Source: Boseongicola sp. SB0665_bin_10
GTDB lineage: Bacteria > Pseudomonadota > Alphaproteobacteria > Rhodobacterales > Rhodobacteraceae
Assembly: GCA_009838075.1 (NCBI GenBank)
Contig: VXSG01000062.1
Location: 25,732-72,134 of the forward strand
Length of the DNA stretch: 46,403 nucleotides
Direction of reading: 5' to 3'
This document shows positions 5,736 through 28,718 of the stretch, one piece after another (the stretch's first letter is position 1; every line of letters starts with the position of its first letter). Below the pieces are notes generated by a model. The model did not search any database. It saw only the letters and a program-made list of their open reading frames with translations, and had not been told where the DNA came from. The position numbers and the translations under genes were made by a program.

Positions 5736-5743
5736 GCCTGAAT

Positions 5744-10606: not shown

Positions 10607-11362
10607 TCAACGGATCGAATAGCCGCCCTCCACCGGCAGGTCGATGCCGGTGACGAAACTCGCGCGGTCGCTTGCCAGGAACACCGCGGCGTCGGCGATC
10701 TCCTCGACCCGCCCGAGTCGCCCGACGGGATGCATCACCCGACCCCAGACGCGCTCGGCCTCCTCCATGTCGCCGCCATAGAGATCGGCCATGCCTTGGG
10801 TGGCGATGCCGCCAGGCTGGATGGTGTTGGAACGGATGCCCTTGTCGGCGTAGTCGAGCGCTATGCCCTTCGACAGCATGGTGATCGCACCTTTCGAGGC
10901 GCAATAGGCGGTCTGGCCGCAATTGGCGACCCGCGCCATGATAGAGGAGATGTGCACGATCGACCCGCCGCCGGCGGTGATCATCCGCGGAATGCAGTGT
11001 TTGGCCATGTTGAAATGGCCGCCGATATTGACCTGCATGGTCCGCTCCCACACCTCATCGGCCAGTTCGGCCACCGGCACGCGGGCGGCGAAATAGGCTG
11101 CCGAGCAGACCAGGATGCAGGGCGGGCCGAGCCGGTCGTCCACCTGCGCCACTGCATCGGCGCAGGCCGCCGGATCGGCGACATCGAGGGTGACCGTGAT
11201 CCCGCCGACTTCCGCGGCCACTGCCGCCGCCGCATCGCCGTCGAGATCGAGAACCGCCACCCGCGCGCCCTCCCGAACGAACGATTCGCAGATCGCCTTG
11301 CCAATGCCGCTGCCACCGCCGGTGACTATGGCCACCCGGCCGTCCAGAAGCTTTTTTTCCAT
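10607..11362 (-). CDS. Short-chain dehydrogenase/reductase (SDR)
   Basis: A cytoplasmic NAD(P)-dependent oxidoreductase of 251 residues. It has the cofactor motif TGGGSGIG near the N-terminus, Asp at the end of beta-2 (VLDLDGD, suggesting NAD preference) and the catalytic triad Ser (HISSI), Tyr and Lys (YCASK). The C-terminal PVEGGYSIR is typical of the classical family. The ATG at 11362 has GGGAG 8 bases upstream and is preferred to the TTG two codons earlier. It is the downstream partner of the dioxygenase gene, 33 bp away on the same strand, so the two probably act sequentially on one substrate. Substrate is unknown. Confidence 0.93.
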   Translation of the reverse strand: MEKKLLDGRVAIVTGGGSGIGKAICESFVREGARVAVLDLDGDAAAAVAAEVGGITVTLDVADPAACADAVAQVDDRLGPPCILVCSAAYFAARVPVAELADEVWERTMQVNIGGHFNMAKHCIPRMITAGGGSIVHISSIMARVANCGQTAYCASKGAITMLSKGIALDYADKGIRSNTIQPGGIATQGMADLYGGDMEEAERVWGRVMHPVGRLGRVEEIADAAVFLASDRASFVTGIDLPVEGGYSIR

Positions 11363-11395
11363 CCTCAATTCTCCCTTTGCTGTCGAGTCGCGGCG

Positions 11396-12418
11396 TCAGG
11401 ATTCGGTAACAGCACTCGTTTCGCCCGGATCGGCATTGCGGGCCTGGCGTGTGAACTGGGTGTAGAGATGCTCGCCGGCCAGGACGGGCGGGAATTTAGG
11501 CGGGTTCTTCGGAGATTGGCAGCTTGGCAGGCATTCGACCAGCGTGTCGTAATTGGTCTCGTGGAAGAATCCGATCGAAATCCTCTCGCTGCCGAGACGC
11601 GCGTCGGGCGGCGGGTTGACCACGCGGTGCAGGGTCGAGACCCATCGGTCATTCGTCCAGCGCGCCATCAGGTCGCCGATGTTGACAATGAAGGTGCCCG
11701 GCGGGGCCTTTACCGGCGCCCAGTCACCGGCCTTGGTCATCACCTGTAGCCCGCCGGGCGCGGCATCCGGACGGAGGATGGTCAGGGTGGAGAAATCGGT
11801 ATGGGCACCGGCGCGCAGCTGACCGGGTTCCGGCGGCACGGCCTGGTCGGGGTAGTACATCGCGCCCAGTATGGCGATGTGCCGGTCGATCTTGTCGTCA
11901 AAGAAACCTTCGGGCAGGTCCAGCGCGAGCGCGAACAGCCGCATCATGTCGGCGGCCAGCCCCGTCATTACGCGATAGTAGCGGGTCCAGACCGTGCCGA
12001 ATTCGGACGGCCTTGCGGGCCAGCGGTTTGGGGCGAAATGGGCGCGCGCCAGGGTCGAGGTGTAATAGGGCTCACCTGACGGCACGTCGACCGGTCCGGC
12101 CGAGAAGGATTCCTTCAGATCCGGCGGCGTGGCGTCGCCCAGCGTGTCGGCCAGCGCCGCGGCACCATAGCCGATATAGCCGCGCACCACGTCCGGCGCC
12201 GGCTGCGCGACTGCGGCTTTCACGGCTGCATCGAGGCGGAAGAAGGCTTTCGAGACGTCGTAGATCTCTGAAAACCTCGCCTCAGGGATGCCGTGGCCGT
12301 CGAGGATGAAGAACCCGATATCGCGGCAGACCCTGTCCACTTCACGGGCGACGTCGTGCCTGTCGTCGGGATTGCCGTGCAGGAAAGGGGCGATGTCGAT
12401 GAGCGGAACGGTGGACAT
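11396..12418 (-). CDS. Isopenicillin-N-synthase-type Fe(II)/2OG dioxygenase (copy 1)
   Basis: The 340-residue protein has an N-terminal DIOX_N-like half (PLIDIAPFL, DRVCRDIGFFILDGHGIP) and a C-terminal 2OG-FeII domain. The iron ligands are visible as HTD (AGAHTDFSTLTIL) and the distal His in WVSTLHRVVNPP; the 2-oxoglutarate/substrate RxS motif is ERISIGFF. Such enzymes hydroxylate, demethylate or cyclise small molecules in the cytoplasm. A close paralogue lies at 19575-20564 on the same strand. The gene diverges from the DddP-like gene and is followed by an SDR. The catalysed reaction cannot be predicted. Confidence 0.92.
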   Translation of the reverse strand: MSTVPLIDIAPFLHGNPDDRHDVAREVDRVCRDIGFFILDGHGIPEARFSEIYDVSKAFFRLDAAVKAAVAQPAPDVVRGYIGYGAAALADTLGDATPPDLKESFSAGPVDVPSGEPYYTSTLARAHFAPNRWPARPSEFGTVWTRYYRVMTGLAADMMRLFALALDLPEGFFDDKIDRHIAILGAMYYPDQAVPPEPGQLRAGAHTDFSTLTILRPDAAPGGLQVMTKAGDWAPVKAPPGTFIVNIGDLMARWTNDRWVSTLHRVVNPPPDARLGSERISIGFFHETNYDTLVECLPSCQSPKNPPKFPPVLAGEHLYTQFTRQARNADPGETSAVTES

Positions 12419-12481
12419 GGGGCTGGTCCGGTCGTGGGAATACCTGATGCAGGGTGGCAGCTCACGTGCCCGGGCGCGAAC

Positions 12482-12493
12482 CCGAAAGCGACA
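12482..12493 (-). promoter_or_regulatory. Putative regulator site, TGTCGCTTTCGG
   Basis: In the divergent gap between dioxygenase copy 1 (start 12418) and the DddP-like gene (start 12580), the minus strand reads TGTCGCTTTCGG. That differs by one base from the TGTCGCATTCGG element found upstream of two other genes of this block. It is 63 bp before the dioxygenase start and 86 bp before the M24 start. No known consensus is claimed. Confidence 0.4.
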
Positions 12494-12579
12494 ATGGCGC
12501 GCAACGCGTGGTCGAATCCGTGCTCGGTTTTCCGAACATCGGCGCTAGACTGGGGCCGACCCCGGAAAGGACGGTCGCG

Positions 12580-13791
12580 ATGGACGAAGCGGCAGGTTTG
12601 AAAGCGAGGACCGAGGCCCCGGACCTGGCGGCGATGCGCCGCTACCGGCTCGGTCGGCTCCTGCGCGAGATCGAAGCGCGCGACGTCGCGGGCGTGCTGT
12701 TGTTCGATCCGGTCAACATCCGCTACGCCACCGATTGCAGCAACATGCAGGTCTGGACTCTCAACAACCCTGCCCGCTACGCGCTGGTTCTGGCTGGCGG
12801 CCGGGTGATCCTGTGGGAATTTCACGGCGCGGAACACCTGTCGGACGACCTGCCCTTGATTGCCGAGACCCGGGTCGGGACTCCCTGGTTCCATTTCGCC
12901 GCCGGCGATGACGGCCTTCGCAAGGCGCGGGAGTTCGCCGGAGAGATCGCCACCGAGATTCGTGCCCATGCCGATGGCAACCTGCGTCTGGCCGTCGACC
13001 GCATTGACACGGTCGGCAGCTTCGCGCTCCTGGCCGAGGGACTTGCGCTGGAGGACGGGATGGCCCTGGCCGAGGACGCGCGGCTCGTGAAATCCACCGA
13101 CGAGATCGCCGCCATGCGCCGGGCGGTCGCCGCCTGCGAAGAAGGCGTGGCAAGGATGCGTGCCGCGCTCTGGCCCGGGATCACCGAGAATGCGCTCTGG
13201 TCGCTTCTGCACCAGGCCAATATCGAGCTTGGCGGGGAGTGGGTCATGACGAGGCTTCTGTCCTCAGGCCCGCGCACCAATCCCTGGTATCAGGAATGTG
13301 GGTTCAAGATGCTGGAGAAGGGTGAGATCGTCAGTTTCGACACCGATCTGGTGGGGCCCTATGGCTATGTCTGCGACATCTCGCGGGCCTGGATCTGCGG
13401 CGATGTGCGGCCTACCGGGCGTCAGCGGGAGCTTCTTGAGGTGTCCCGCGACCAGATCGAGCACAACCGCACACTCCTGCACGCCGGCACCTCCACCACC
13501 GAGATTTCCCATGCCGCGTTCCGGATGCCGGCAAAATTCGAGGATCAGCAATATCTTGGCCTGATCCACGGCGTCGGCTTGGGTGACGAGCACCCAGTGG
13601 CGGTGCCGGCGAAATTCGTGCATCGCGGGGTGAAAGAGACGGTGCTGGAGCCTGGCATGACCGTCAGCATAGAGAGCTATGTCGGCGAGGTCGGGGGCGC
13701 CGAGGGTGTGAAGCTGGAGGAACAGGTGCTGATCACCAAGACAGGGTCGGAGCCGCTGTCGACCTACCCCATCGACGAGACTTGGGGCTGA
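12580..13791 (+). CDS. DddP-like M24 (peptidase-fold) metalloenzyme
   Basis: From the ATG at 12580 (GGAAAGGA upstream) the protein is 403 residues; an in-frame GTG at 12454 would give 445, close to the usual DddP length. It has the creatinase/prolidase fold. Metal ligands are Asp254, Asp256, Asp266, His330, Glu365 and Glu380, with an extra Asp336 in HGVGLGDE. The spacings (2, 10, 64, 35, 15, and +6 for the extra Asp) equal those I recall for DddP (Asp295/297/307, His371, Glu406/421, proposed base Asp377). DddP is an M24-fold DMSP lyase rather than a peptidase. DddP-like phrases include NIRYATD-SNMQ, GGEW--TR-L-SGPRTNPW-QECG and FDTDL-GPYG. Many homologues in non-marine bacteria are unproven, so an Xaa-Pro-type or other onium-compound enzyme remains possible. 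Confidence 0.85.
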   Translation: MDEAAGLKARTEAPDLAAMRRYRLGRLLREIEARDVAGVLLFDPVNIRYATDCSNMQVWTLNNPARYALVLAGGRVILWEFHGAEHLSDDLPLIAETRVGTPWFHFAAGDDGLRKAREFAGEIATEIRAHADGNLRLAVDRIDTVGSFALLAEGLALEDGMALAEDARLVKSTDEIAAMRRAVAACEEGVARMRAALWPGITENALWSLLHQANIELGGEWVMTRLLSSGPRTNPWYQECGFKMLEKGEIVSFDTDLVGPYGYVCDISRAWICGDVRPTGRQRELLEVSRDQIEHNRTLLHAGTSTTEISHAAFRMPAKFEDQQYLGLIHGVGLGDEHPVAVPAKFVHRGVKETVLEPGMTVSIESYVGEVGGAEGVKLEEQVLITKTGSEPLSTYPIDETWG

Positions 13792-14187
13792 GCGGCGATG
13801 CACGCGATGATCACGGACGGCACCGGCATCCTCCTGGCCCTTGTGGCGCCGACTTGGTTGACCCACGACCAGAGTCGCCCGGGTGACATTTTTGGACCGC
13901 GCTGCGCCCAACGACGCGATGCACGGCTTCCTGCAGTGGCGGCGCGGCTGTGGCACGACCCGGGCGATGCCGCGGCCCTGGCTACTTGTCGCATGACTCG
14001 GGCGGCGGACTCGTTCTGGCCATTGATCCCGGCGGTGAAGATCTGCGTGGCCAGGATACACAATGACCCGGACCATGCTGCAGTCCTGCCGTCGCTGGCA
14101 CCGCATTCGGCTGAGGCCACGGCTGCGCTCGACTCGCTCGATCTGGAAGTGCCCTCGCGGATGCAAGCCGGATATCGATGCCAGAAG
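13792..14187. other. Gap with no recognised gene
   Basis: This roughly 400-bp stretch lies between the stops of the convergent DddP-like and binding-protein genes. Open frames exist on both strands (for example a plus-strand frame from 13798 into the next gene), but I recognise no family in any frame and see no convincing ribosome-binding site. It may be decayed coding sequence. Confidence 0.5.
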
Positions 14188-14215
14188 TCGGGGCCGACGC
14201 CTCGGCCGGCCCCGA
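14188..14215 (-). terminator. Stem-loop after the peptide-type binding-protein gene
   Basis: TCGGGGCC at 14188-14195 pairs with GGCCCCGA at 14208-14215. An alternative internal 6-bp stem is GGCCGA/TCGGCC at 14192-14207. It begins 6 bases after the stop at 14222 on the minus strand. No T-run follows. Confidence 0.45.
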
Positions 14216-14221
14216 ACTGGT

Positions 14222-15880
14222 TCAGGCTTCCATGGCCATTTCCTCGAAGAAGATGAACTTCGTCGGGTGCATGGTGAAGTTCACCACGCGGCGGTTGAAG
14301 GCGGTGGCCACCTGCACGAAATGAGGCTGCACGATCGGCCCTTCTTCGCGCATGATGGTCATCAATTCGCCCATGACTCGCCGCCGCTCGTCCGGGTCGA
14401 CGGTGCCACCGATCTCAACCAGCAATTCGTCGAAACGCTCATGCGAGAAACTGCTTTCGTTCCAGGGTGCGCCGGTGCGATATGCAAGTCCAAGCACCAT
14501 CGGTCCGAGCGGCCTGTGGCCCCAAGCGGTCAGGCTGAACGGATATTCCGTCCAGCGATCCCAGAATGAAGAGGCCGGAAGGGTCTGAAGCGTCACTCGG
14601 ATGCCCGCCCGTGCCCAGTCCTGCACCATGACTTGGGCCACGTCGAGTTCCCAGTTGGGCTGCGTCTTGACCACCATTTCCAGGTCGATGCCGTCAGGAT
14701 AGCCGGCCTCAGCTAGGATCTCGGCGGCCCGTTCGGGGTTGAACTCGAACGGCCCGAGATCCGCCCATTCCGGGTGGATCGGCGAGACGTGGGTGTGATC
14801 ACCCGGTCCGGCATTGCCGCGCAGCGCGCGCTCGATCACCGCCTGGCTGTCGGTGGCGTGGCGCATGGCGAGCAGAATCCGCGGATCGTTGAACGGCTCC
14901 TGATCGACCTTGCCGCGGGCCACTGCGGTCTGCGCGGTATTGGCGCGGTAGACCTCGATATGCTCGACCCCGGTGACCATGGGTGCCTGGGATTCCGACA
15001 GCTCGTAGATGCCGTCGACCTGGTCGGTCAGAAGGGCCGAGATCGCGGCGGCGGAATCCTCGCCCAGATCGGTGAACACGATCCGGTCGACATGGCCGCC
15101 GCCCGAAAAATGCTCGCCCGCTGCCCGTTCCAGCACCGCCCGTTCGCCGACGGCATGTTCGACCATCGTGTAGGCTCCGGTACCGTTGGAACCGACGCCG
15201 TAGCTGCCGTTCTCCTCGGGGTCGAGCATGCTCAACGGGTAGTGGAACAAGTGCTCGGGCACCGCGGTCTCGGCGACCTTGAGGTTCAGCCGGAGCGTCA
15301 GGTCGTCCACCACCTCGATGGCATTGGCATCCCACAGTACCGCCCGGGTGACCGCGTTGCCGTCATCGTCGGTTTCGCCGGTTTCCTCGTTGGTCAGCAT
15401 GTAGCCGGACATCAGACCGACCACGGAAGAGCCGGTTTCGGGCCGGAGCGTATGGTCGATGTTCCAGGCCGCGTCCTCGGCCGTGAACGGCCGGCCATTG
15501 TGCCAGGTCACCCCGGGGCGGACATGCAGCGTCCAGGTGCGTAGGTCCTCCGACGCCTCCCACCGGTCCAGAAGCCAGGGCCTGGTGAGGTTGTCCTGCG
15601 CAGTTCGCGTCAGGTAATCGCAGGCCGGACGGATCACTGCGGCGCCTTCGCCGAAGGAAATCGCGTGCGGGTTTGAGATGTCCAGCACCCGCATTCCCAT
15701 TCTCAGAGTTCCGCCGCGCGGCAGACTGGTATCGGCACGTGCTGGCATCGGCAGCCCGGCCAGAGAATATGCGGCAGTCGCCGAAAGGCCCAGAAGCGTC
15801 GACTGGCGCAGGAAGTCACGGCGGGACAGTCGCCCTTCGCGCATCCATTCCGTCAGTCTGGTCAGTGTTGGGGTTTGCAT
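14222..15880 (-). CDS. Peptide/opine-type ABC solute-binding protein (SBP_bac_5), Tat-exported
   Basis: The 552-residue protein starts at an ATG (15880) with GGAG 9 bases upstream. The N-terminus carries a twin-arginine signal (SRRDFLRQS) followed by a hydrophobic stretch (LLGLSATAAYSLAGLP) and a probable cleavage site after ARA. The mature protein has the DppA/OppA pattern (GGTLRMGMRV, DNLTRPWLLDRWEASEDLRTWTLHVR, W-NGRPFTAEDAAWN). It captures a di/oligopeptide, opine or similar small ligand in the periplasm and delivers it to the permeases at 17745-19546. The methyltransferase gene sits between it and the permeases on the same strand, with a 220-bp gap (15881-16100) that may hold its own promoter. 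Ligand unknown. Confidence 0.92.
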   Translation of the reverse strand: MQTPTLTRLTEWMREGRLSRRDFLRQSTLLGLSATAAYSLAGLPMPARADTSLPRGGTLRMGMRVLDISNPHAISFGEGAAVIRPACDYLTRTAQDNLTRPWLLDRWEASEDLRTWTLHVRPGVTWHNGRPFTAEDAAWNIDHTLRPETGSSVVGLMSGYMLTNEETGETDDDGNAVTRAVLWDANAIEVVDDLTLRLNLKVAETAVPEHLFHYPLSMLDPEENGSYGVGSNGTGAYTMVEHAVGERAVLERAAGEHFSGGGHVDRIVFTDLGEDSAAAISALLTDQVDGIYELSESQAPMVTGVEHIEVYRANTAQTAVARGKVDQEPFNDPRILLAMRHATDSQAVIERALRGNAGPGDHTHVSPIHPEWADLGPFEFNPERAAEILAEAGYPDGIDLEMVVKTQPNWELDVAQVMVQDWARAGIRVTLQTLPASSFWDRWTEYPFSLTAWGHRPLGPMVLGLAYRTGAPWNESSFSHERFDELLVEIGGTVDPDERRRVMGELMTIMREEGPIVQPHFVQVATAFNRRVVNFTMHPTKFIFFEEMAMEA

Positions 15881-16100
15881 GTCAATTGTCTCCTTTTCAT
15901 GCTTGGTTGCCCCGCCGGTCGTTGCACGGCGCGGGTGCGGTCGAGGGCAGGCCGACGAGCCTGCCGGCATTCGCGCGACGCTCATCGCCCGCGCGGAAAG
16001 AAGAAGACCACGACATCGCTGATGGTACCCCATCGGGCGTGCTGCAATCAACCATTGCGATCTGTCGTCCTCCTTGTCCTCAACGAAAGCGCCGGGCGGG

Positions 16101-17639
16101 TCAGAGTCCCGTCGCCTCGATCTCCTCCTTGCGTCGGGCCACGTAGGCCTCCAAGGCCTCGCTCCGGTCCTCCGGCAATTCCGGCGGGCTGTATTCCTCC
16201 AGCGCCTGTTTCCAGATGCGGGTGGCGCGATCGGTCGCGGATTGCGCGCCCGCCGCCTCCCAGGTCTCGTAGTTGCTCCAATCCGAAAGGATCGGGTGGT
16301 AAAAGGCGGTTTCGTAGCGCTCCATCGTGTGGGGCTCGCCGAAGAAATGCCCACCGGTCGGGACGTTGGCGAGGACATCGAGCGAAAGCGTGGACGCATC
16401 CACCTCCGGCGACTGCATCATCTCGGCCATCTGCTGCAGCATCTCCACGTCCAGGACCAGCTTCTCGAACGATGCGGTCAGGCCGCCCTCCAACCATCCG
16501 GCGGCGTGGTAGATCACGTTAGCCCCACCCAGCACCGCCGCCCAGAGCGCCGTTTGCGTTTCGTAAGCCGCCTGCGCGTCCACCGCGTTTGAGGAGTTGG
16601 CGTTCGAGGTGCGATAGGGCAACCCGTAGCGCCGAGCGAGTTGTCCGCTGGCGATGTTGGCCTTGGCGTTCTCCGGCGTGCCGAAGGCTGGCGCACCGGT
16701 CCGCATGTCCACGTTCGAGGTGAAAGCGCCGTAGATCACCGGGGTGCCGGGACGCACCAGCTGCGTAAGCACCACCCCGAACAGCGCCTCGGCATTCTGC
16801 TGAGCCAGCGCGGTCGGCAGCGTCACGGCCGTCATCGCGCCCATCAGCGTGAAGGGCGTGACCAGCACGGCCTGGCCGAGTTCGGCTGCGGCGATCAGCC
16901 CCCTTGCCATCTCGCCATCGAAGCGCCGCGGCGAGTTGACCGAGATCGGCGCCACGATACCGGGCCGTTCGGCAAGCGCCTCCAGGTTTTCGCCGCGGGC
17001 CAGCGCCATCATTGCGATGCCGTCGGTCGCCCGCGCCGGGCCGATGGCGGAGACGTGAAAACACATGTCCGACAGCGTGAGATTGGCGAAATAGGTATCC
17101 AAGTGGCGGGTCTCGGCCGGCAGATCCAGGGGCGCCACGGCCTGGTTGCCGATCAGGTGGATGATGTTGAAATACTGGGCAAGACGGATCAGGTCGCGGT
17201 AGTCCTCCATGGTCGCCGGCCGCCGGCCGCGTTCGGCGTCGCTGACATTGGGCGGACCGGCGACGAGGCCGAATACCAGTTCGCGGCCGCCGATCTCGAT
17301 CGCGCGGGCGTGATTGGACGGGGTCAGGCGAAAGCGCGACGGCGCCTTGGCCACGTACTCCATCATCAGGGTGCGATCGGGGCGCACGGTGCAGGTGCCG
17401 CTGTCGACATCGGCGCCGGCCGCCGCGAAAAGATCGCGGGCGCGGTCGTCCAGCAGTTCAACTCCGAGGGATTCGAGAATCGACAGGGATGAGTCGTGAA
17501 TGGCCTCGATCTGGTCGGCGGAATAGAATGCGACCGGGGGAAAGGCGTTCTCGATCGCCCGCCAGGGGGCCTGTTCCAGCGCAGGCGTACGTGATCGCCG
17601 GACGCGGGCATTGCGTCTCCTGCGGCGTTGCACGTTCAT
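16101..17639 (-). CDS. MttB-family (trimethylamine methyltransferase family) protein, non-pyrrolysine
   Basis: The 512-residue protein belongs to the MttB superfamily (SILESLGVELLDDRARDLFAAAGADVD, GNQAVAP, YHAAGWLEGGLTASFEKLVLDVEMLQQM, GGHFFGEPHTMERYETAFYHP). It is the full family length with no internal amber codon, so it is the non-pyrrolysine type. Characterised relatives (for example MtgB, glycine betaine) transfer a methyl group from a quaternary amine to a corrinoid protein. No corrinoid-binding protein or activating enzyme is visible in this window, so the acceptor is unresolved. The first roughly 20 residues are Arg-rich and may not be translated. Its position between binding protein and permeases suggests that the imported ligand, or a product of it, is the methyl donor. 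Confidence 0.88.
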   Translation of the reverse strand: MNVQRRRRRNARVRRSRTPALEQAPWRAIENAFPPVAFYSADQIEAIHDSSLSILESLGVELLDDRARDLFAAAGADVDSGTCTVRPDRTLMMEYVAKAPSRFRLTPSNHARAIEIGGRELVFGLVAGPPNVSDAERGRRPATMEDYRDLIRLAQYFNIIHLIGNQAVAPLDLPAETRHLDTYFANLTLSDMCFHVSAIGPARATDGIAMMALARGENLEALAERPGIVAPISVNSPRRFDGEMARGLIAAAELGQAVLVTPFTLMGAMTAVTLPTALAQQNAEALFGVVLTQLVRPGTPVIYGAFTSNVDMRTGAPAFGTPENAKANIASGQLARRYGLPYRTSNANSSNAVDAQAAYETQTALWAAVLGGANVIYHAAGWLEGGLTASFEKLVLDVEMLQQMAEMMQSPEVDASTLSLDVLANVPTGGHFFGEPHTMERYETAFYHPILSDWSNYETWEAAGAQSATDRATRIWKQALEEYSPPELPEDRSEALEAYVARRKEEIEATGL

Positions 17640-17733
17640 TTTCCGCGATCGGGGCGATAGTCGGGCACCCTTGAAGTCTGGCAGCCATGCGCCCCGGCAA
17701 TCCTCCCAATCCGACCTAAGCGGGCGGAAACAG

Positions 17734-17743
17734 GTCGCATTCG
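17734..17743 (+). promoter_or_regulatory. Weak match to the shared regulatory motif
   Basis: GTCGCATTCG (10 of the 12 motif bases) lies about 95 bp upstream of the methyltransferase start, just beyond the end of the permease gene. Orientation is opposite to the gene. Weaker than the other sites. Confidence 0.2.
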
Positions 17744-17744
17744 T

Positions 17745-18617
17745 TCAATCCTTTAACTCGGTCTCGCGCAAACCGTCGGCCAAAAGGTTAAGCCCCAGCA
17801 CCAGCGACGAGATCGCCGCGCAGGGGGAGAGAGTCATGTAGGGCGCGAAGGTGGCCATTGAGCGGGCTTCGTTGACCATGCCTCCCCAGTCGGGCTGCGG
17901 CGGCGGCAGACCGAGGCCGAGAAAGCCAAGCACCCCGATGGTGATGGTCACGTAACCTAGGCGCAGGCAGGCATCGACGATCAAAAGCGAAGTGGCGTTC
18001 GGAAGGATCTCCACGAACATTATGTAGGGCGCGGTCTCGCCCCTGGTTTCGGCCGAGGCGACATAGTCGCGGTTGCGCAAGTCGAGTACGATGCCACGCA
18101 CGATGCGCATGATCCCTGGTGCGCTTGCGAACGTGACGGCGAGGATGATGTTGCCGCCCGAGGCTCCGAAGACCGAGATGATGACGACGTAGAGGACCAA
18201 GACCGGGAAGGAGAGCACGATGTTGGCGATGGTCGAGACCACGTCGTCCACCCATCCCCTGAGATAGCCCGCCGCCAGACCCATGGTCACCCCCACCGCA
18301 TAGGCCGAGAAGGTCGCCGTCACCGCGAAGAACAGCACCCTCCGGGCGCCGAAGATGATCCGCGAAAGGATGTCGCGGCCCAGGTGATCGGTGCCGAGCA
18401 TGTGCCAGAGTCCGTCCGGCCCAGACGCTCCCGGCCGAACGAAGGAGGTGAACTGTTCCACCGGATCGTAGGGCGCGATCAGTGGTGCAAAGAGGGCCAC
18501 CGCGCACCAGAAGACCACCACCGCGCCGCCGATCACCGCGACCGGGCTGGTCAGGACCTTCGGCAGCACCGGGCGACGGGCCGCGCCCTGGGTCGGGGGG
18601 GCGGAGACCTCGGTCAT
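17745..18617 (-). CDS. Peptide-type ABC permease, DppC family
   Basis: A 290-residue inner-membrane permease. A long cytoplasmic N-terminus is followed by the first membrane helix (VAVIGGAVVVFWCAVALFAPLIAPY), then the LGTDHLGRDILSRIIFGARR signature of DppC-type permeases and later transmembrane segments. The start at 18617 gives a 4-bp ATGA overlap with the DppB-like gene; a longer frame to 19274 only reads through that gene. It should form a heterodimer with the DppB-like partner and be driven by the fused ATPase at 22381-24477. Confidence 0.94.
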   Translation of the reverse strand: MTEVSAPPTQGAARRPVLPKVLTSPVAVIGGAVVVFWCAVALFAPLIAPYDPVEQFTSFVRPGASGPDGLWHMLGTDHLGRDILSRIIFGARRVLFFAVTATFSAYAVGVTMGLAAGYLRGWVDDVVSTIANIVLSFPVLVLYVVIISVFGASGGNIILAVTFASAPGIMRIVRGIVLDLRNRDYVASAETRGETAPYIMFVEILPNATSLLIVDACLRLGYVTITIGVLGFLGLGLPPPQPDWGGMVNEARSMATFAPYMTLSPCAAISSLVLGLNLLADGLRETELKD

Positions 18618-20667: not shown

Positions 20668-20720
20668 AAGGCAACGGTGCAGCCGCGGGTGTAGCGTTTC
20701 CACGTTCGAGGGAGGCGGCG

Positions 20721-22157: not shown

Positions 22158-22164
22158 AAAGGGC

Positions 22165-22375
22165 GTGCTGCTGGCCTCGCGGGCGATCGTCACCGTTGCC
22201 GCGCGTGATGTCGGCCGAGCCATCGCCCAACGCATCGCGGCGGAGGGAGCCGCGGTCGTCGGGCTGGACCGGGCGGAGATCGCGGGCGTCGGCGGAACTG
22301 TCGCCGATCTGGCCTACCACTCCGCCTTCGTCACTGGCCGACCTGGTCATCGGCGGCGCACGCAGCCTCGGCTGA
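22165..22375 (+). pseudogene. Decayed SDR remnant (N- and C-terminal ends only)
   Basis: Seven bases after the hydantoinase stop, a frame from GTG 22165 reads like the beta-alpha-beta start of an SDR (RAIVTVAARDVGRAIAQRIAAEG, then VVGLDR). It passes almost directly into a typical SDR C-terminus: SAFVTG in this frame, then ADLVIGGARSLG and a stop in another frame. About 170 central residues are missing and one small frameshift is present. The glycine-rich motif is also damaged. This is the scar of a former downstream SDR gene. Confidence 0.7.
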
Positions 22376-22380
22376 GCGCT

Positions 22381-24477
22381 TCACTCGCCTTCTGTCGCCT
22401 GTGCCTCCCGCAGCGCGATCACCGGTGGCATCACGTCGAGCACTGCGTCGGGCAGGTGGCACTTCAACCGGTGCCCGCCGCCCTTGCTGCGGGCCGGCGG
22501 CATCTCGGATTCGCAGATCGGGTGGCCAGCGGACGCCTGCGCCTCGGCCTTGCGCGGGCAGCGGGTCTGGAACGGGCAGCCCGACGGCGGTCGCTCGGCC
22601 GAGGGGATATCGCCCGACAGCACGATGCGGCGCTTCCCGAACCGGCTGTCGGCGATCGGCACGGCGGACAGAAGCGCTTCGGTATAGGGATGATAGGGCG
22701 GCGCAAAGACATCGACCGTGCGCCCCTGTTCCACCACATGGCCCAGATACATCACCACCACCCAGTCAGCGAGATGATGGACGATGCTCAGGTCATGGCT
22801 GATGAACAGCATCGCGGTGCCGCTTTCGGCCTGGATCTCGGTCAGCAACTCGGCCACCGCCGCCTGAACCGAGGCATCGAGCGCCGAGAGCGGTTCGTCA
22901 GCCACCACGAATTCCGGATTGCCGGCAAAGGCCCGCGCGATGGCCACCCGCTGTTTCTGCCCGCCGGAGAGCTGCCGCGGCCGGCGCGCGGCGAAATCCC
23001 GTGGCAGGCGCACGCGATCGAACAGTTCCGCGACCGCGGCGCGACGTTCCCGCGCATTGCCGGCGATGCCGAAGCGCTTCAGCACGCGCTCCACCTGCCT
23101 GCCCACACGCCACTTCGGGTTCAGCGTGTCGAACGGGTTCTGGAACACCATCTGGATCGAACGGACGATATCAGGATCGCGCCGCCGCACCTCGGTGCCG
23201 GCAATGTCGGTTCCGGCGAATCGGACGCTTCCGTTCGTGGCGGTTTCCAGCCCAGTCAAGACCTTGGCCAGCGTCGATTTCCCGCAGCCGGATTCGCCGA
23301 CCAGCGCCACGGTCCGGCCTTCATGGGCCTCGAAACTGACATCCTCGTTCGCCTTCACCACGTCGCGCCGGGCGGCGAAGATTCCGCCGGAGCGGGAATA
23401 ATGCTTCTGTAACCCTTCGATGCGCATGATCATCGACCCGATGGCGGCGTCTTGCGGGTCGGCGGCACGGTCGTCCTCGCGTCTGGCATCGAGCGCCTCG
23501 ATCTTGAGGCAGCGCGACAGATGCGCATCTGCGCCCCCGACCGCCTGCATGGCGACCGGCCCGGCATTGCACAGCCCGTCCTGGAACAGAGCGCAGCGCG
23601 GGCCGAAATTGCAGCCCCGCGGCCGGTCGAAGGGCAAGGGCAGCTGCCCGGGGATGGTTCGCAGTGCACGTTCCGACTTGTCGGCGTCGGGCACCGGCAA
23701 CGCATCCAGAAGGCCCTGAGTATAGGGGTGCCGCGGCGACTCGAACACGCGGTCGACCGGGCCGCTTTCCACCGCCTCGCCGGAATACATCACCACCACT
23801 CGGTCACAGGCCGCCCTTATCAAGCCCAGATTGTGGCTGATGAACAGGACCGAGACGCCGAATTCGGCCGACAGCGCACGGACAAGCTCGACGATGCCGG
23901 CCTCGACGGTCACGTCGAGCGCGGTGGTCGGCTCGTCCATCAGCAGCAGCTTCGGCCGCCGCAACAGTGCCATGGCGATCACAACGCGCTGCTGCTGCCC
24001 TCCCGAGATCTGGTGCGGATAGCTCATCATGATGCGGTCGGGATCGGGCAGGCGCACCGCCTCCAGCATCTGGCGCGCCCGCGCCTCGGCCGCAGCCCGG
24101 TCATTGCCGTCGACCACGACCAGCGGCTCGGCCAGTTGCCGCCCGATCCGCATCGACGGGTTCAGCGACGAGGATGGCTCTTGGTAGACCATGGCGATGT
24201 CGCGGCCCCAGATCCGTCGTAGCTCGCCGCGGGGCAGCGTCGCCAGGTCCTGACCCATGAAGCGGATCGAGCCGCCGGTGATATGGCCGTTGCCGCCGAG
24301 ATAGCGCATGATGGCGAAGGCGACGGTGGATTTGCCGCTGCCGGATTCGCCCACCAGGCCCACCGTCTCGCCCGCCATCACCCGGCAGTCGAAGCCGGCC
24401 ACGGCGGGGATGTCCACCGCGTGAGTGCTGAAGCTGATCGAGAGGTCGGTGACCTCCAGTACGGGATCAGTGGTCAT
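22381..24477 (-). CDS. Fused peptide-type ABC ATPase (DppD-DppF in one chain)
   Basis: The 698-residue protein holds two complete ABC cassettes. The first has Walker A GESGSGKS, signature ISGGQQQ and Walker B LLLMDEP. The second has GESGCGKS, LSGGQKQ and FVVADEP. Each is followed by an oligopeptide-transporter C-terminal segment with a Cys cluster (CNFGPRCALFQDGLC; CPFQTRCPRKA), which may bind a cluster or metal. The ATG at 24477 has GAGGA 4 bases upstream; the frame open to 24864 is only read-through. The gene is separated from the permeases by the divergent hydantoinase gene and must partner them in trans. The 3' end is 5 bases from the SDR remnant. Confidence 0.93.
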   Translation of the reverse strand: MTTDPVLEVTDLSISFSTHAVDIPAVAGFDCRVMAGETVGLVGESGSGKSTVAFAIMRYLGGNGHITGGSIRFMGQDLATLPRGELRRIWGRDIAMVYQEPSSSLNPSMRIGRQLAEPLVVVDGNDRAAAEARARQMLEAVRLPDPDRIMMSYPHQISGGQQQRVVIAMALLRRPKLLLMDEPTTALDVTVEAGIVELVRALSAEFGVSVLFISHNLGLIRAACDRVVVMYSGEAVESGPVDRVFESPRHPYTQGLLDALPVPDADKSERALRTIPGQLPLPFDRPRGCNFGPRCALFQDGLCNAGPVAMQAVGGADAHLSRCLKIEALDARREDDRAADPQDAAIGSMIMRIEGLQKHYSRSGGIFAARRDVVKANEDVSFEAHEGRTVALVGESGCGKSTLAKVLTGLETATNGSVRFAGTDIAGTEVRRRDPDIVRSIQMVFQNPFDTLNPKWRVGRQVERVLKRFGIAGNARERRAAVAELFDRVRLPRDFAARRPRQLSGGQKQRVAIARAFAGNPEFVVADEPLSALDASVQAAVAELLTEIQAESGTAMLFISHDLSIVHHLADWVVVMYLGHVVEQGRTVDVFAPPYHPYTEALLSAVPIADSRFGKRRIVLSGDIPSAERPPSGCPFQTRCPRKAEAQASAGHPICESEMPPARSKGGGHRLKCHLPDAVLDVMPPVIALREAQATEGE

Positions 24478-24580
24478 GCGTCCTCGCCCCCGGGCCCGGA
24501 CAATGTCGGACACCGAAGCGGGAGGACGCAAGCACAAACACGGTCGCCACCAACCCAGATCCGTCCGCAATCGACCCCGA

Positions 24581-24592
24581 TGTCGCATTCGG
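24581..24592 (+). promoter_or_regulatory. Putative regulator site, TGTCGCATTCGG
   Basis: In the 176-bp divergent gap between the fused ATPase (start 24477) and the PuuE-like gene (start 24654), 61 bp before the latter. It is identical to the element at 26811-26822. A related GCAATCG sits 18 bases upstream, giving a direct-repeat look as expected for an AraC-type regulator. Confidence 0.4.
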
Positions 24593-24653
24593 AGCGGACT
24601 TGCTCCTTGCGTGGCTGCACCGTCCGAACAAATCACAACTCCGGAGCGTCCCC

Positions 24654-25568
24654 ATGTCCGACACCTCCTATCCGCGCGACCTGATCGGTTACGGCCCCAC
24701 CCCTCCACAGGCGGCCTGGCCCGGCGAGGCGCGGGTCTGCCTGTCCATCGCAATCGCCTACGAGGAGGGATCGGAAACCTGCATCCTGCATGGTGACGAC
24801 CGCTCCGAAGCGGCGCTGGCCGAGGTGGCCGGGATAGAGCCCGTGATTGGAGGGCGCGATCCAAATTCCGAGAGCATCTATGAATACGGCAGCCGCGTCG
24901 GCTATTGGCGGTTGCACCGCATTTTGGTGGATCGCGGCCTTGCCGCGACGGTGTATGCGGTGACGATGGCGCTGGAACGCAACCCTGCGGTCGCCGAGGC
25001 GGCGATGACGGCCGGGTTCGAAGTGCTGTCCCATGGCCATCGCTGGATCGACTACTCGCAGGTGCCCGAGGTCGAGGAGCGCGCCCATATCGACCGTGCG
25101 GTGGAGATCATCACCAGGCTCTGCGGCCGGCGTCCGCTTGGCTGGTATACCGGAAGGCCGAGTGCCAACACCCGCCGCTTGGTCATCGAGGAGGGCGGTT
25201 TCCTCTACGATAGTGACAGCTATGCCGACGACCTGCCGTATTGGGATCGCTCGTATGGGCATGCGCATCTGGTGATCCCGCACCAGTTTGACACCAACGA
25301 TTCGAAACTCGTCCACACCAACGGCTTCCCCAATGGCGAGGCCTGGGAACGCTACCTGATCGACACCTTCGACGTACTCTGGCGCGAGGGCGCGGTCGCT
25401 CCCCGGATGATGACGGTGTCGCTGCATCCCAGGATCGCCGGTCGGCCGGGACGGTCGGCGGGGTTGGAGCGGTTCCTCGACCATGTGCTGGCCCATGACC
25501 GGGTCTGGATCCCGCGCCGCGCCGATATCGCGCGGCACTGGATCGCGCGCTTCCCGCCCGGCGGTTAA
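24654..25568 (+). CDS. PuuE-type polysaccharide-deacetylase-fold amidohydrolase (allantoinase-like)
   Basis: The 304-residue protein starts at an ATG with GGAG 7 bases upstream. It has the NodB/polysaccharide-deacetylase fold in the PuuE variant (AYEEGSE, ILHGDDRSE, SESIYEYGSRVGYWR, SHGHRWIDY, GWYTGRPS, YDSDSYADDLPYW, LHPRIAGRPGR). Characterised PuuE is a cofactor-independent allantoinase; relatives hydrolyse other amides or deacetylate sugars. With the hydantoinase in the same block, cyclic-amide hydrolysis is the more likely job. No other purine-breakdown genes are present, so true allantoin use is unlikely. It is the upstream neighbour of the regulator gene. Confidence 0.85.
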   Translation: MSDTSYPRDLIGYGPTPPQAAWPGEARVCLSIAIAYEEGSETCILHGDDRSEAALAEVAGIEPVIGGRDPNSESIYEYGSRVGYWRLHRILVDRGLAATVYAVTMALERNPAVAEAAMTAGFEVLSHGHRWIDYSQVPEVEERAHIDRAVEIITRLCGRRPLGWYTGRPSANTRRLVIEEGGFLYDSDSYADDLPYWDRSYGHAHLVIPHQFDTNDSKLVHTNGFPNGEAWERYLIDTFDVLWREGAVAPRMMTVSLHPRIAGRPGRSAGLERFLDHVLAHDRVWIPRRADIARHWIARFPPGG

Positions 25569-25623
25569 CACTCCAAAGCCGCTTGACAGATCTGCCCTCC
25601 TCGTGCCGGAGTGACCTAACCGT

Positions 25624-25635
25624 TGGAGCATTCGG
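25624..25635 (+). promoter_or_regulatory. Weak match to the shared motif upstream of the regulator
   Basis: TGGAGCATTCGG matches the shared element at 10 of 12 positions and lies in the gap before the small frame at 25648 and the regulator gene (start 25805). It could mediate autoregulation. Confidence 0.22.
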
Positions 25636-25647
25636 GGACAACCGGAG

Positions 25648-25803
25648 GTGCCGGAACAGGACGCTGACATCGAACGATTGCGCGCCGGTCTGTCGGCCGG
25701 GGGCGCGGGGCTGCGCGTGCTGATCGATGCCGGCGATCCCGGGCCGGCCGAAAGCGTGCTGTCCGCGGCGCTGAACCGGGTCGATCCGGCGCGAGGTTAC
25801 TGA
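25648..25803 (+). CDS. Possible small protein (51 aa) upstream of the regulator
   Basis: A GTG-initiated frame of 51 codons ends with a TGA one base before the regulator's ATG. The product is acidic and Ala/Gly/Leu-rich (DADIERLRAGLSAGG, AESVLSAALNRVDPARGY). It resembles no family I know. Its tight spacing to the next gene is suggestive, but GGAG lies too close to the GTG to be a good ribosome-binding site. It may instead be a gene remnant or untranslated leader. Confidence 0.3.
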   Translation: MPEQDADIERLRAGLSAGGAGLRVLIDAGDPGPAESVLSAALNRVDPARGY

Positions 25804-25804
25804 C

Positions 25805-26875
25805 ATGGCGAAGCCGGACACAGCCACCCGCCGTGATGGCAACGCCTCCAGCGACACGCCGGATGCACTCATCTCCGTTGCTTTGTTCGTGGAGCATGAA
25901 TTCCCGCTGGCGCCGATGTCGATGGTCCTGGAGACCTTGCGCTTGGTGAACTGGGTTGAGGACCAGCGCGTGTTCCATCACTGGATCGTGTCGGCCGACG
26001 GACAGCCGCGTGCCTCTTCCTCGGAACAACCGGCCAATGTCGAACATTCGGTCCGGACCTGCCCGCCAGCCGACATCGTGCTGGTCTGCACCGGGCTGAA
26101 TTCCGACCAAATCAGCGACTCCGCAGTGCTGAACTGGGTACGCAACTGCCATCGCCGCGGCGGGCAGGTCGGTGCGATCTCAGGCGGAGCCTTCGTGCTG
26201 GCGCGTGCCGGGCTCCTGCATGGACGCCACGCCTCGGTGCATTGGGAGAGCAGCCGCTCCCTGGCCGAGGCCTTTGCCGATGTCACCGTTTCTGACAACA
26301 TCTTCGTCATAGACGGCCGCATCATCACCTGCGCTGGCGGCATCTCGACACTGGACATGATGGTGCACCTGATCGAGACCTTCCGCGGCCGCGCCGTCGC
26401 CCGTCAGGTGGCCGATGCGCTGATCTACCAGTCGATCCGCCACGGCGGCGCACCGGCCCGGATTGACTTGCGCCATCGGACAGGAGCCTCGAACGGCGTC
26501 CTGTTGCAGGCGATCGAATTGATGGAGCGCAATCTCGAAGAACCGGTGAAACTGTCCGAGATCTCAGCCCGGCTCGGCACCTCCATGCGCCATCTGGAAC
26601 GCCTGTTCGCGCGCAATTTCAACGTCTCGCCGTCAAAATACTACATGCGCCCGCGCCTGAAGGAGGCCAAGGGCCTGTTGTCGCAATCCGACATCCCGGT
26701 GGTCGAGGTGGCGCTGCGGTGCGGGTTCCGCAACACCTCGCATTTCGCCCGTCGCTTTCGCGAGCTCTACGACGCACCGCCGTCCGAAGCGCGCCGGGCA
26801 GCGCGGGCCATGTCGCATTCGGGCGGTTGCCACGCGGATCGGGGCGGTCAGGCGCGCCAGCGTCGTCTAGGGTGA
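25805..26875 (+). CDS. GlxA-family transcriptional regulator (DJ-1/PfpI-like sensor + AraC HTH)
   Basis: The 356-residue protein has a class-I-amidotransferase-like (DJ-1/PfpI) ligand-sensing domain at about residues 23-200 and a C-terminal AraC double helix-turn-helix at about 235-335 (LSEISARLGTSMRHLERLFARNF; VVEVALRCGFRNTSHFARRFRELY). The nucleophile-elbow position has Ser (GAISGGAFVLARAGLL) instead of Cys, consistent with binding rather than catalysis. Relatives include GbdR and CdhR, which sense glycine betaine metabolites and carnitine. It is the only regulator gene in the 10.6-28.7 kb block and the obvious candidate to control it. The SDR at 26900 follows after 24 bp. Confidence 0.92.
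   Translation: MAKPDTATRRDGNASSDTPDALISVALFVEHEFPLAPMSMVLETLRLVNWVEDQRVFHHWIVSADGQPRASSSEQPANVEHSVRTCPPADIVLVCTGLNSDQISDSAVLNWVRNCHRRGGQVGAISGGAFVLARAGLLHGRHASVHWESSRSLAEAFADVTVSDNIFVIDGRIITCAGGISTLDMMVHLIETFRGRAVARQVADALIYQSIRHGGAPARIDLRHRTGASNGVLLQAIELMERNLEEPVKLSEISARLGTSMRHLERLFARNFNVSPSKYYMRPRLKEAKGLLSQSDIPVVEVALRCGFRNTSHFARRFRELYDAPPSEARRAARAMSHSGGCHADRGGQARQRRLG
26811..26822 (+). promoter_or_regulatory. Putative regulator site, TGTCGCATTCGG
   Basis: It lies inside the last codons of the regulator gene, 77 bp before the SDR start at 26900. It is identical to the element at 24581-24592, and both copies are followed by a GCGG. It may drive an internal promoter for the SDR-epimerase pair. 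Confidence 0.35.
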
Positions 26876-26899
26876 GCAGGCAGGAAGGAAGGAGGCCGA

Positions 26900-27676
26900 A
26901 TGGCACAGCGTCTGAGCGGCAAGACCGCGATCGTCACCGGCGCGGCATCGGGCATCGGTCGCGCAATCGCGATTCTCTTCGCTGAGGAGGGCGCGAAGGT
27001 CTGCGTCGCCGATATCCTCACCGATCCCAAGGAGGGTGGCACCCCGACCGAGGAGGAGATCACCGCCCGCGGCGGCACTGCCGTGCGCGTGCAATGCGAC
27101 ATCTCAAACTGGGCCGATATCGACGGGATGTTCGGGCGCGTGGTGGAGGAATGGGGTCGGCTGGACATCCTCGTCAACAACGCCGCGCACTGGACCACCA
27201 CGCCCTTGACCGAAACCACGCCCGAGCAATGGCGCGAGGTGATGGCGGTCAATGCCGACGGCTATTTCATGTGCTCCAAGCGCGCGGTCGAGCAGATGCT
27301 AACCCAGAACGTCGTGGCCGAGGCGCGGGGGCGCATTGTCAACATCACCTCGCAGCACGGCATGATCGGCGCCCCGAATGATATCGCCTACGGGACCGGC
27401 AAGGCGGCCTCGGTCTATTTGACCCGCCAGATCGCAACCGATTACGGCCGCCATCACATCATCTGCAACGCGGTGGCGCCGGGCCGGATCGTCACTGGCA
27501 AGCCGGGGGTCAGCATGGACCCCAAGGGGCTGGAGGCCGCCCGCGCGCGCACGCCCTATCCACGCTTGGGCGAGGCCATGGACGTGGCCTATGCCACGCT
27601 GTTCCTGGCTTCGGACGAATGTCGCTTCATCTCCGGCGTCAACCTGATGTGCGACGGCGGCTGGTCGGCTAGCTGA
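26900..27676 (+). CDS. Short-chain dehydrogenase/reductase (SDR)
   Basis: A 258-residue classical SDR with a strong GGAGG site before its ATG. It has the TGAASGIG cofactor motif, Asp after beta-2 (VADIL, NAD-type), NNAAH, and the catalytic Ser (NITSQHG), Tyr and Lys (YGTGK). The C-terminus MCDGGWSAS is family-typical. It lies 24 bp after the regulator gene and 10 bp before the epimerase-family gene, so the three are likely co-transcribed. Its substrate is probably an alcohol or ketone intermediate of the same pathway; identity unknown. Confidence 0.93.
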   Translation: MAQRLSGKTAIVTGAASGIGRAIAILFAEEGAKVCVADILTDPKEGGTPTEEEITARGGTAVRVQCDISNWADIDGMFGRVVEEWGRLDILVNNAAHWTTTPLTETTPEQWREVMAVNADGYFMCSKRAVEQMLTQNVVAEARGRIVNITSQHGMIGAPNDIAYGTGKAASVYLTRQIATDYGRHHIICNAVAPGRIVTGKPGVSMDPKGLEAARARTPYPRLGEAMDVAYATLFLASDECRFISGVNLMCDGGWSAS

Positions 27677-27686
27677 AGGGAACGAG

Positions 27687-28718
27687 ATGACCCTCCTGAT
27701 CACCGGCGGCGGCGGTTTCGTGATGTCAAACTTGGCGCTGATGTGGCTGAAACGCCACAGCGAGGAGCATGTCGTTGTGCTCGATGCCGGGCCGAAGGAT
27801 GCTGCGCTCGACCGGTTCTGGACACCGGTGGCGGACCGGCTGACCTATATCCGCGGCAACATCCTCGATGCGGAACTGCTCGCCCGCATCGGTGCCGAGC
27901 ACGCGCCTGACCGCATCCTGCATGCCGCTACGGTTACCCTGTTCGCCCCGGAAACGCCGGAGGGTGCGGCAATTACCAACCCCGAGACCGACGTCCCCGA
28001 CAAGGTGCTGGAGGTCAACATCATGGGCACTGTGCGGGTGCTGGAACTGGCGCGCACCTTGCGGGACCTTAAGGCCTTCGTCAATCTCAGCTCCGGTGGG
28101 GTCTACAACGATTACGGGCCCGAACCGCCTAGCCCGATGCCTGAGGACGGTTGGGTCGATCCACCGGAATTCTACGGTATCTCGAAATACTCCAGCGAGA
28201 TGATCGCCTGTCACTATGGCAAGAGTTTCGGCTTCGATGTCTGTTCCTGTCGGCTCTCCGGCGTCTATGGGCCAATGGATCGCTGGCGGCCCTCGCGCGC
28301 CTATGACTGCCCGCCCAAGGTCGCGCTGCATCGGGCGCTGGCGGGCGAAGTGATCCGCATCAATGACACCGAAGGCGTTGGCGACCATATCCACGCACAG
28401 GACGTGGCCCGGGCGATGATGGCGCTACTGGAGAAAGATGGCGGCTTCGCTCACCCGGTCTACAACGTCGCCCAGGGCGAGGCGGTGACGCTCGGCCAGT
28501 TGCTGGAGTTGTGCCGAGAGATCGAACCGGGCCTTAAATGGGAAATCGCGCCGCCCTCCGAGTGTGATATCATCGTTGACCCGCGCTTCAAAGGCGGGCG
28601 GTGGGGAGCCTACGACATTTCGCGGCTGCGAGGTGAGACCGGTTGGGAGCCGATTCCGCTGCGCCAGGCCCTGCGCCATTACGCCGACTTCATTCATTCT
28701 TTCGGTGCCACGCCATGA
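27687..28718 (+). CDS. NAD-dependent epimerase/dehydratase-family protein
   Basis: The 343-residue protein has the extended-SDR fold. The N-terminal motif is TGGGGFVMS, where the third glycine of the usual GGxGFIG is Met. The catalytic pair YGISK is present, with Ser upstream (NLSSGGVYNDYG), and later GVYGPMDRWRPSRAYD. The ATG follows AAGGGA by 7 bases. Such proteins act on sugar nucleotides or on small hydroxy acids (as in uronate/lactone dehydrogenases). No sugar-nucleotide genes surround it, so a small-molecule oxidoreductase role is more likely. It is the last gene of the accessory block and converges with the aminotransferase gene. Confidence 0.88.
   Translation: MTLLITGGGGFVMSNLALMWLKRHSEEHVVVLDAGPKDAALDRFWTPVADRLTYIRGNILDAELLARIGAEHAPDRILHAATVTLFAPETPEGAAITNPETDVPDKVLEVNIMGTVRVLELARTLRDLKAFVNLSSGGVYNDYGPEPPSPMPEDGWVDPPEFYGISKYSSEMIACHYGKSFGFDVCSCRLSGVYGPMDRWRPSRAYDCPPKVALHRALAGEVIRINDTEGVGDHIHAQDVARAMMALLEKDGGFAHPVYNVAQGEAVTLGQLLELCREIEPGLKWEIAPPSECDIIVDPRFKGGRWGAYDISRLRGETGWEPIPLRQALRHYADFIHSFGATP

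Follow-up and report, generated by a model that had tools for sequence, protein, structure and literature searches.

A transferable gene block in a Boseongicola genome that links an MttB-family methyltransferase with dioxygenases and predicted ring-opening amidohydrolases

Introduction

In Ruegeria pomeroyi, a stand-alone corrinoid protein receives a methyl group of betaine from a protein of family PF06253; in the available part of their report, the authors suggest that extra PF06253 paralogues act on other methylated compounds (PMC12478193). According to the available text of other papers, Asp295 is named as a metal ligand and Tyr366 and Asp377 as proposed active-site residues of the dimethylsulfoniopropionate (DMSP) lyase DddP (PMC4108388), and the half-sites of the regulator CdhR read GGTCGC, are separated by a 15-bp spacer and are described as resembling those of GbdR, SouR and ArgR (PMC5806209); a review gives an ArgR site beginning with TGTCGC (PMC12134079). 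Here, we describe a block of 14 genes in Boseongicola sp. SB0665_bin_10, a draft genome of 4.8 Mb, which contains an MttB gene of family PF06253 together with genes for an importer, a regulator, two dioxygenases and two predicted ring hydrolases. The block lies in a stretch of 46,403 nucleotides that was analysed as a whole and is called the window (G000:C47:25732-72134; our numbers with G, C and L denote genomes, contigs and loci). The block is a real, transferable and recurrent catabolic unit, in which the enzyme families are already known and their combination is new. No pathway with this gene set was found in the open-licence literature searched, including that on hercynine or ergothioneine together with hydantoin, on homarine and on DddP relatives, in agreement with the initial annotation of this DNA.

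Results

The block is a discrete unit that is absent from the same site in genus mates

The frames of the window were profiled with the Pfam and NCBIfam models, and 14 open genes were found to occupy positions 10607-28718 (Table 1). In order, they encode a short-chain dehydrogenase/reductase (SDR1), a 2-oxoglutarate (2OG)-Fe(II) dioxygenase (DIOX1), an M24 metalloenzyme, a solute-binding protein (SBP5), MttB, the permeases OppC and OppB, a second dioxygenase (DIOX2), a hydantoinase-like amidohydrolase (HYD), a fused ATPase (OppDF), a PuuE-like protein, a GlxA-type regulator, SDR2 and an epimerase-like protein (EPI). When the whole window was compared by blastn with contig G935:C57 (locus L049; 23,540 bp), positions 10606-28763 matched at 92-94%, the covered bases being 93% identical, and no flank homology was found at E 1e-10, barring cross-matches between DIOX1 and DIOX2. 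The L049 contig holds counterparts of all 14 genes and two genes without a counterpart in the window, namely a DHDPS-family gene in the M24-SBP5 gap and a D-2-hydroxyacid dehydrogenase gene in the PuuE-regulator gap. About 74 window bases have no counterpart in its DIOX2 (2185-3141), the pieces of which lie in different frames, so that the record does not show this gene as a single open frame.

The neighbouring aminotransferase was then used as the query for an empty site in seven genus mates. It was found in six (the seventh, G004, is 65% complete), and the block was absent at this site in all six stretches examined. In five of them, the end of the aminotransferase adjoins the gene of window 1-1219, and therefore about 1220-28858 is missing there; in the sixth, G006, 1.4 kb of other DNA lies between window positions 9857 and 28767. 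The span shared with L049 and the empty sites bear out the single coherent block of the initial annotation, the edges of which (10607 and 28718) prove nearly exact when set against the L049 homology and the G006 junction; the families that it named were all found as open frames where it had placed them. The genus mate G007 has part of the block on another contig (L044, G007:C14, 5788-8076), namely SDR1, DIOX1 and M24 up to residue 177, where the match stops within the contig. A DIOX2 match at E 1e-90 was given by the window's own genome and by no other among 295 sampled family genomes, which did not include G007.

The aminotransferase at 28872 was considered as a further member and rejected, because it is found in genus mates without the block at that site (six of the seven, adjoining the empty site in those six); it is 32% identical to the HisC-like enzyme of locus L194. 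On the other side, window 1220-9857 holds a sugar-type ABC importer, an argininosuccinate-lyase-like gene and a gene for an 807-residue PIG-L protein, and is absent here in five of the six genus mates. Since the PIG-L gene is at least partly retained in G006, one insertion may lie within another.

Homologous gene sets recur in other genomes

In a scan of genome contigs with a dioxygenase alignment, 546 stretches encoded a relative, and 79 loci were kept. In five of these loci (L047-L051), the dioxygenase is accompanied by highly similar block genes. L047 has OppB and OppC beside the dioxygenase, L048 is G007 itself and L049 has the whole set; L050 combines the dioxygenase with MttB (60% identity), SDR2 (72%) and HYD (57%), and L051 with MttB (58%) and SDR2 (72%). 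The remaining 74 loci gave weak, paralogue-level matches (Opp ATPase at most 41%, SDRs at most 35%), among them a partial HYD of 33% (L052) and an MttB of 39% (L098).

The full contig of L051 (C53; 30,360 bp) belongs to a metagenome-assembled genome (MAG) of Rhizobium sp. Q54. In order, it carries the dioxygenase (59%), SDR2 (72%), a DMG-dehydrogenase-like gene, MttB (58%), D-2-hydroxyacid dehydrogenase, DHDPS and a 192-residue protein, followed by sarcosine-oxidase alpha, a further FAD-type protein, MmgE/PrpD, LysR and SBP5 (49%); then come OppB (49%), OppC (55%), OppDF (48%) and an MFS protein, followed in turn by HYD (32%), EPI (44%), a second HYD (32%), a PuuE-like gene (40%) and an SDR (36%). 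C53 thus has homologues of ten block families; identity is 48-72% for seven of them and 32-44% for the other three. The first C53 HYD passes the cut-offs of both the PRK13404 dihydropyrimidinase (684.3 against 647 bits) and TIGR02033 D-hydantoinase (516.8 against 393.25) models. Homologous sets accordingly stand together on the L049 and Rhizobium MAG contigs, and partly in Hyphomicrobiaceae and Albidovulum MAGs, which answers the initial annotation's concern that the genes might never co-occur.

In the Albidovulum genome of L047, another contig carries M24 (78%), MttB, D-2-hydroxyacid dehydrogenase and SBP5 (69%). No recognisable MttB cluster was seen around the PuuE homologues of the L050 and L047 genomes in the stretches fetched (L259, L264-L266). 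Two adjacent PuuE-like genes, which share 36% and 46% identity with that of the window, lie at L265 8572-10367 in the Albidovulum genome. The small contig of L047, which carries DIOX2-OppB-OppC, also has an IS1634-family transposase at 5209-6592.

Cyclic-amide hydrolases are recurrent neighbours of this MttB group

Relatives of the window MttB, up to about 64% identical, were collected by tblastn on plasmids and by searches of 341 order and 385 class genomes. At E 1e-150, 24 of the order and 43 of the class genomes gave a match, the window's own being counted in each. We fetched 40 neighbourhoods, half of them the top 20 of the order list and half picked from the upper part of the class list, and clustered their genes together with those of the window, L049-L051 and L126-L129. 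Among these 48 loci, several of which come from close relatives and are not all independent, a DMG-dehydrogenase-like gene occurred in 23, a LysR-type cluster gene in 22, MmgE/PrpD in 19, a HisC-like aminotransferase in 12, HyuB and a racemase in ten each and sarcosine oxidase alpha in eight. Relatives at 57-65% identity often have a DMG-dehydrogenase-like demethylase gene and MmgE/PrpD next to them.

Ring hydrolases were counted over 44 loci (L126-L129 and L185-L224); C53, L050 and L274 were scored and excluded, and the window and L049 were left unscored. With the group defined by percentage identity to the window MttB, HyuA/B, HYD or PuuE occurred in 12 of the 34 loci at or above 57.5% (15 counting M24) and in one of the ten loci below it (two counting M24), which are too few to prove a difference. 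Cyclic-amide hydrolases thus recur beside the MttB genes of this group without being constant. L185 and L194 each combine HYD-type with PuuE-type genes; L185 also has a CN_hydrolase gene and L194 an EPI homologue. As a separate observation, L211 has three tandem PuuE-like genes (16395-19998) beside an MttB that is truncated where the stretch ends, and a further MttB about 6 kb away.

Family assignments of the block enzymes

MttB matches PF06253 over its full length (positions 1-499 of 500), and its frame has no in-frame stop that could be an amber (pyrrolysine) codon. It scores 298 bits with the glycine betaine methyltransferase 9yce and 297.9 bits with the trimethylamine methyltransferase model TIGR02369, below the curated cut-off of 525. 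The genome has eight PF06253 genes on eight contigs, and a search with the B12-binding_2 model alone gave one match, a stand-alone corrinoid protein (297-codon frame, DIHDIG motif).

M24 reaches 430.9 bits over 409 residues with the DddP model NF043017 (curated cut-off 600) and retains the aligned active-site Tyr and Asp (Tyr366 and Asp377 of DddP). The label DddP-like therefore holds for family resemblance and for these two residues, and not at the curated cut-off. In the six MttB-linked copies aligned, the metal-ligand columns are invariant; except for Asp295, Tyr366 and Asp377, the DddP positions used here are those that we take to be the ligands. The Asp377 equivalent is absent in one of the six copies (L126), and the genome has two further M24 paralogues at 46% identity.

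DIOX1 and DIOX2 are 59% identical over 325 residues, and DIOX1 retains the HxD...H and RxS residues, which we presume to be the motif of such enzymes. By phmmer, the best solved-structure matches of DIOX1 are 3oox (putative), then thymine dioxygenase 5c3p and the ethylene-forming enzyme 9ovh. For HYD, the true start of which is perhaps near 20721, the top solved-structure matches are D-hydantoinases, its score with TIGR02033 (348.5 bits) lies below the curated cut-off of 393.25, and a plasmid search with its protein gave no match at E 1e-80. The PuuE-like protein falls just under the curated cut-off of the PuuE allantoinase model TIGR03212 (416.3 against 424.6 bits) and is the second copy in the genome; the other, on contig C19, scores 501.9, above that cut-off. 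These assignments bear out the initial annotation's view of onium-type enzymes beside cyclic-amide hydrolases. The ergothioneine-utilisation ErtD models NF058538 and NF058539 gave 170.2 and 158.2 bits, under their curated cut-offs of 600 and 650. SBP5, OppB, OppC and OppDF together make up a complete predicted Opp-type importer. The regulator scores 263.2 bits with the GbdR betaine regulator model NF052371, under the curated cut-off of 480.

A common motif in the divergent promoters

Exact matches to a 12-bp motif, TGTCGCWWWCGG, number four in the window, where 0.04 would be expected, a ratio to be read with the fact that the motif was picked from a comparison of five intergenic stretches; allowing one mismatch gives six matches against 1.84 expected. 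The exact matches lie in the three divergent promoters and before SDR2, the last not having been used to define the motif. In L049, three sites are unchanged and one retains 10 of 12 bases, and the flanks agree at 425 of 480 bases. The common motif argues against control of the block genes by unrelated regulators.

Table 1 Positions of the block, its genes and the putative regulator sites in the window
Feature	Position	Strand	Basis or remark
Whole transferable block	10606..28763	.	blastn span against L049; site empty in 6/6 genus-mate stretches
SDR1, short-chain dehydrogenase/reductase	10607..11368	-	PF13561 193 bits
DIOX1, 2OG-Fe(II) dioxygenase, isopenicillin-N-synthase/thymine-dioxygenase kind	11396..12418	-	PF14226, PF03171
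M24 metalloenzyme, DddP-like	12454..13791	+	PF00557; start may be ~12580
SBP5, Opp-type solute-binding protein, twin-arginine-like N terminus	14222..15880	-	PF00496 217.5 bits; translation
MttB/MtgB-family corrinoid methyltransferase, non-pyrrolysine	16101..17639	-	PF06253 655.5 bits
OppC-type permease	17745..18614	-	PF00528
OppB-type permease	18614..19546	-	PF00528
DIOX2, second 2OG-Fe(II) dioxygenase	19575..20564	-	family match; 59% identical to DIOX1; not open in L049 record
HYD, D-hydantoinase/dihydropyrimidinase-like amidohydrolase	20610..22157	+	TIGR02033 348.5 bits
OppDF, fused OppD-OppF ATPase	22381..24477	-	two ABC_tran and two oligo_HPY stretches
PuuE-like cyclic amidase	24654..25568	+	TIGR03212 416.3 bits; structure 3cl6 PuuE 367 bits
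GlxA/GbdR/CdhR-type AraC regulator, DJ-1-like domain and helix-turn-helix	25805..26875	+	PF01965, PF12833
SDR2	26900..27676	+	72% identical to copies near MttB in L050, L051
EPI, NAD-dependent epimerase/dehydratase-like	27687..28718	+	homologues in MttB clusters of C53 (44%), L194 (33%)
Putative regulator site TGTCGCTTTCGG	12482..12493	-	DIOX1/M24 divergent promoter; 10/12 bases in L049
Putative regulator site TGTCGCAAACGG	20656..20667	+	DIOX2/HYD divergent promoter
Putative regulator site TGTCGCATTCGG	24581..24592	+	OppDF/PuuE divergent promoter
Putative regulator site TGTCGCATTCGG	26811..26822	+	78 bp before SDR2, inside regulator gene end

Discussion

Because the gene sets are common to other genomes, a chance assembly of the block is unlikely. 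On balance, we favour the view that the block is an island which can move horizontally and which serves to degrade a quaternary ammonium compound, namely an N-methylated betaine with a cyclic ureide or amide that is either part of its carbon skeleton or formed from it. The steps that we infer would be as follows. The Opp-type importer would take up the compound, and the GbdR/CdhR-like regulator would sense it and activate the divergent operons via the TGTCGC-type sites. MttB would pass one methyl group to the stand-alone corrinoid protein, as MtgB does to MtgC in Ruegeria, leaving a tertiary amine that would be stripped further by FAD/folate demethylases, which are linked in relatives and lie elsewhere in this genome. 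The 2OG dioxygenases would hydroxylate the skeleton, and the SDR and EPI enzymes would oxidise or reduce the product. Finally, HYD and the PuuE-like enzyme would open the ring amide bonds, and M24 would cut a C-N (or beta C-N/C-S) bond to give ordinary amino or keto acids. The gene content of the block, its character as a unit, its co-occurrence elsewhere, the motif and a corrinoid protein in the genome are observations, and the catalysis, the order of the steps, the pairing of the regulator with its sites and the substrate are our reading of them. The evidence from enzymes and families supports such a substrate class, not one compound.

Another explanation, which we regard as unlikely, is that the substrate is a purine- or pyrimidine-derived ureide (such as an N-methylated allantoin or hydantoin, or creatinine), with the PuuE-like, hydantoinase-like, thymine-dioxygenase-like and creatinase-fold enzymes doing the main work and MttB handling a minor or non-onium N-methyl group. 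The PuuE-like and HYD-like genes of the block fit this, as do the thymine dioxygenase that is the second-best solved-structure match of DIOX1 and the M24 and isochorismatase-family genes that adjoin MttB in Sinorhizobium meliloti. Yet the Discussion of PMC12478193 lists five MttB-superfamily substrates, every one a quaternary amine, demethylase-type genes often neighbour this MttB group, and the annotations of the 14 block genes include no urate, uracil or creatininase enzyme. It also seems rather improbable to us that two modules were joined by chance or for joint transfer, one for betaine (MttB, importer and regulator) and the other an unrelated ring-opening and dioxygenase set. Such a junction would agree with the divergent, interleaved operons, the weak similarity of HYD and PuuE in C53, the numerous MttB loci without ring hydrolases and the DIOX2 that is not open in L049; against it, the two sets are interleaved gene by gene with one motif common to them, they stand together again in C53 and L050, and HYD-type and PuuE-type genes lie by MttB in L185 and L194. 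A main substrate of the sulfonium kind, such as a DMSP-like compound cleaved by M24, is very improbable, for although the DddP model score of 430.9 bits and the aligned active-site Tyr and Asp speak for it, that score is far under the curated cut-off, the genome has two more M24 paralogues (46%), and the hydantoinase-type genes have no evident role with DMSP.

Several points weigh against the betaine island that we favour. Besides the way in which the motif was chosen, L049 has a degenerate version of its DIOX1-M24 site, exact matches are missing from the stretches upstream of SBP5 and of the regulator gene, and inspection of the motif sites by eye showed no partner half-site spaced by 15 bp as in CdhR (21-bp period). 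The second dioxygenase may be dispensable, or the L049 record may be faulty. No family match among the 14 block genes names an N-carbamoylase. On C53, homologues of M24 and of the GlxA-type regulator were not found, a LysR-type regulator being there instead, and the HYD, PuuE and EPI counterparts are just 32, 40 and 44% identical. In 22 of the 34 closer MttB loci, the stretch fetched has no HyuAB, HYD or PuuE homologue, and the ten loci below the identity threshold are few. The block also lacks a DMG-dehydrogenase-like partner; the closest relative that the genome offers shares 44% identity with the L050 protein.

A narrower form of the betaine proposal, which we put forward only as a long shot, is an undescribed, B12-dependent pathway by which a heterocyclic betaine is degraded aerobically; ergothioneine, as an imidazole betaine, and other betaines derived from histidine would be examples. 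In it, MttB and the FAD/folate demethylases would remove the trimethylammonium group, and the dioxygenases would make a hydantoin-type ureide that HYD and the PuuE-like enzyme would open, with no trimethylamine-releasing ergothionase step. As to the initial annotation as a whole, its coherent block, its pairing of onium and cyclic-amide enzymes and its statement on named pathways hold, whereas creatinine, DMSP and methylated hydantoins are guesses at the substrate, and M24 is a candidate for sulfonium chemistry.

Among the known systems, the DMSP lyase DddP (PMC4108388, from its available text) is like M24 in family over 409 residues and in Tyr366 and Asp377, and differs in that M24 scores 430.9 bits against a cut-off of 600 and that the L126 copy is without the Asp377 equivalent. 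The carnitine and betaine control by CdhR and GbdR in P. aeruginosa (PMC5806209, likewise in part) resembles the window in having an AraC regulator with an amidotransferase-like domain, and the CdhR half-site GGTCGC is close to the TGTCGC of the window; in contrast, the window regulator is below the GbdR cut-off and the 15-bp-spaced repeat was not seen. The S. meliloti pSymA cluster (L126) shares MttB (59%), a GlxA-type regulator (33%), M24 (38%) and a DMG-dehydrogenase-like neighbour, which is in three pieces in this record, but has isochorismatase and enolase-superfamily genes and no dioxygenase or hydantoinase homologue that we could find; the Shinella cluster L129 is similar to it, with an importer annotated as glycine-betaine type. 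The Leisingera/Ruegeria plasmid clusters L127 and L128, which comprise MttB, DMG-dehydrogenase-like, MmgE/PrpD, racemase, HisC-like aminotransferase and HyuAB genes, have an MttB 61-62% identical to that of the window, an adjoining cyclic-amide hydrolase and, in L128, an Opp-type importer; they differ in that HyuAB replaces HYD and PuuE and a dioxygenase homologue was not found.

MtgBCD of R. pomeroyi, as described in the available text of PMC12478193, has in common with this genome a PF06253 methyltransferase, a stand-alone corrinoid protein, a Rhodobacterales-type host and several MttB paralogues, whereas the MttB of the window is associated with dioxygenases, with enzymes of the hydantoinase and PuuE types and with an Opp importer. 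The several MttB paralogues of Ruegeria-type marine bacteria were proposed there in 2025 to serve diverse methylated compounds, none being named in that text. The block links one such MttB paralogue with an importer, a regulator and an unusual oxygenase and ring-opening set in one transferable unit, and its substrate can therefore be sought directly.

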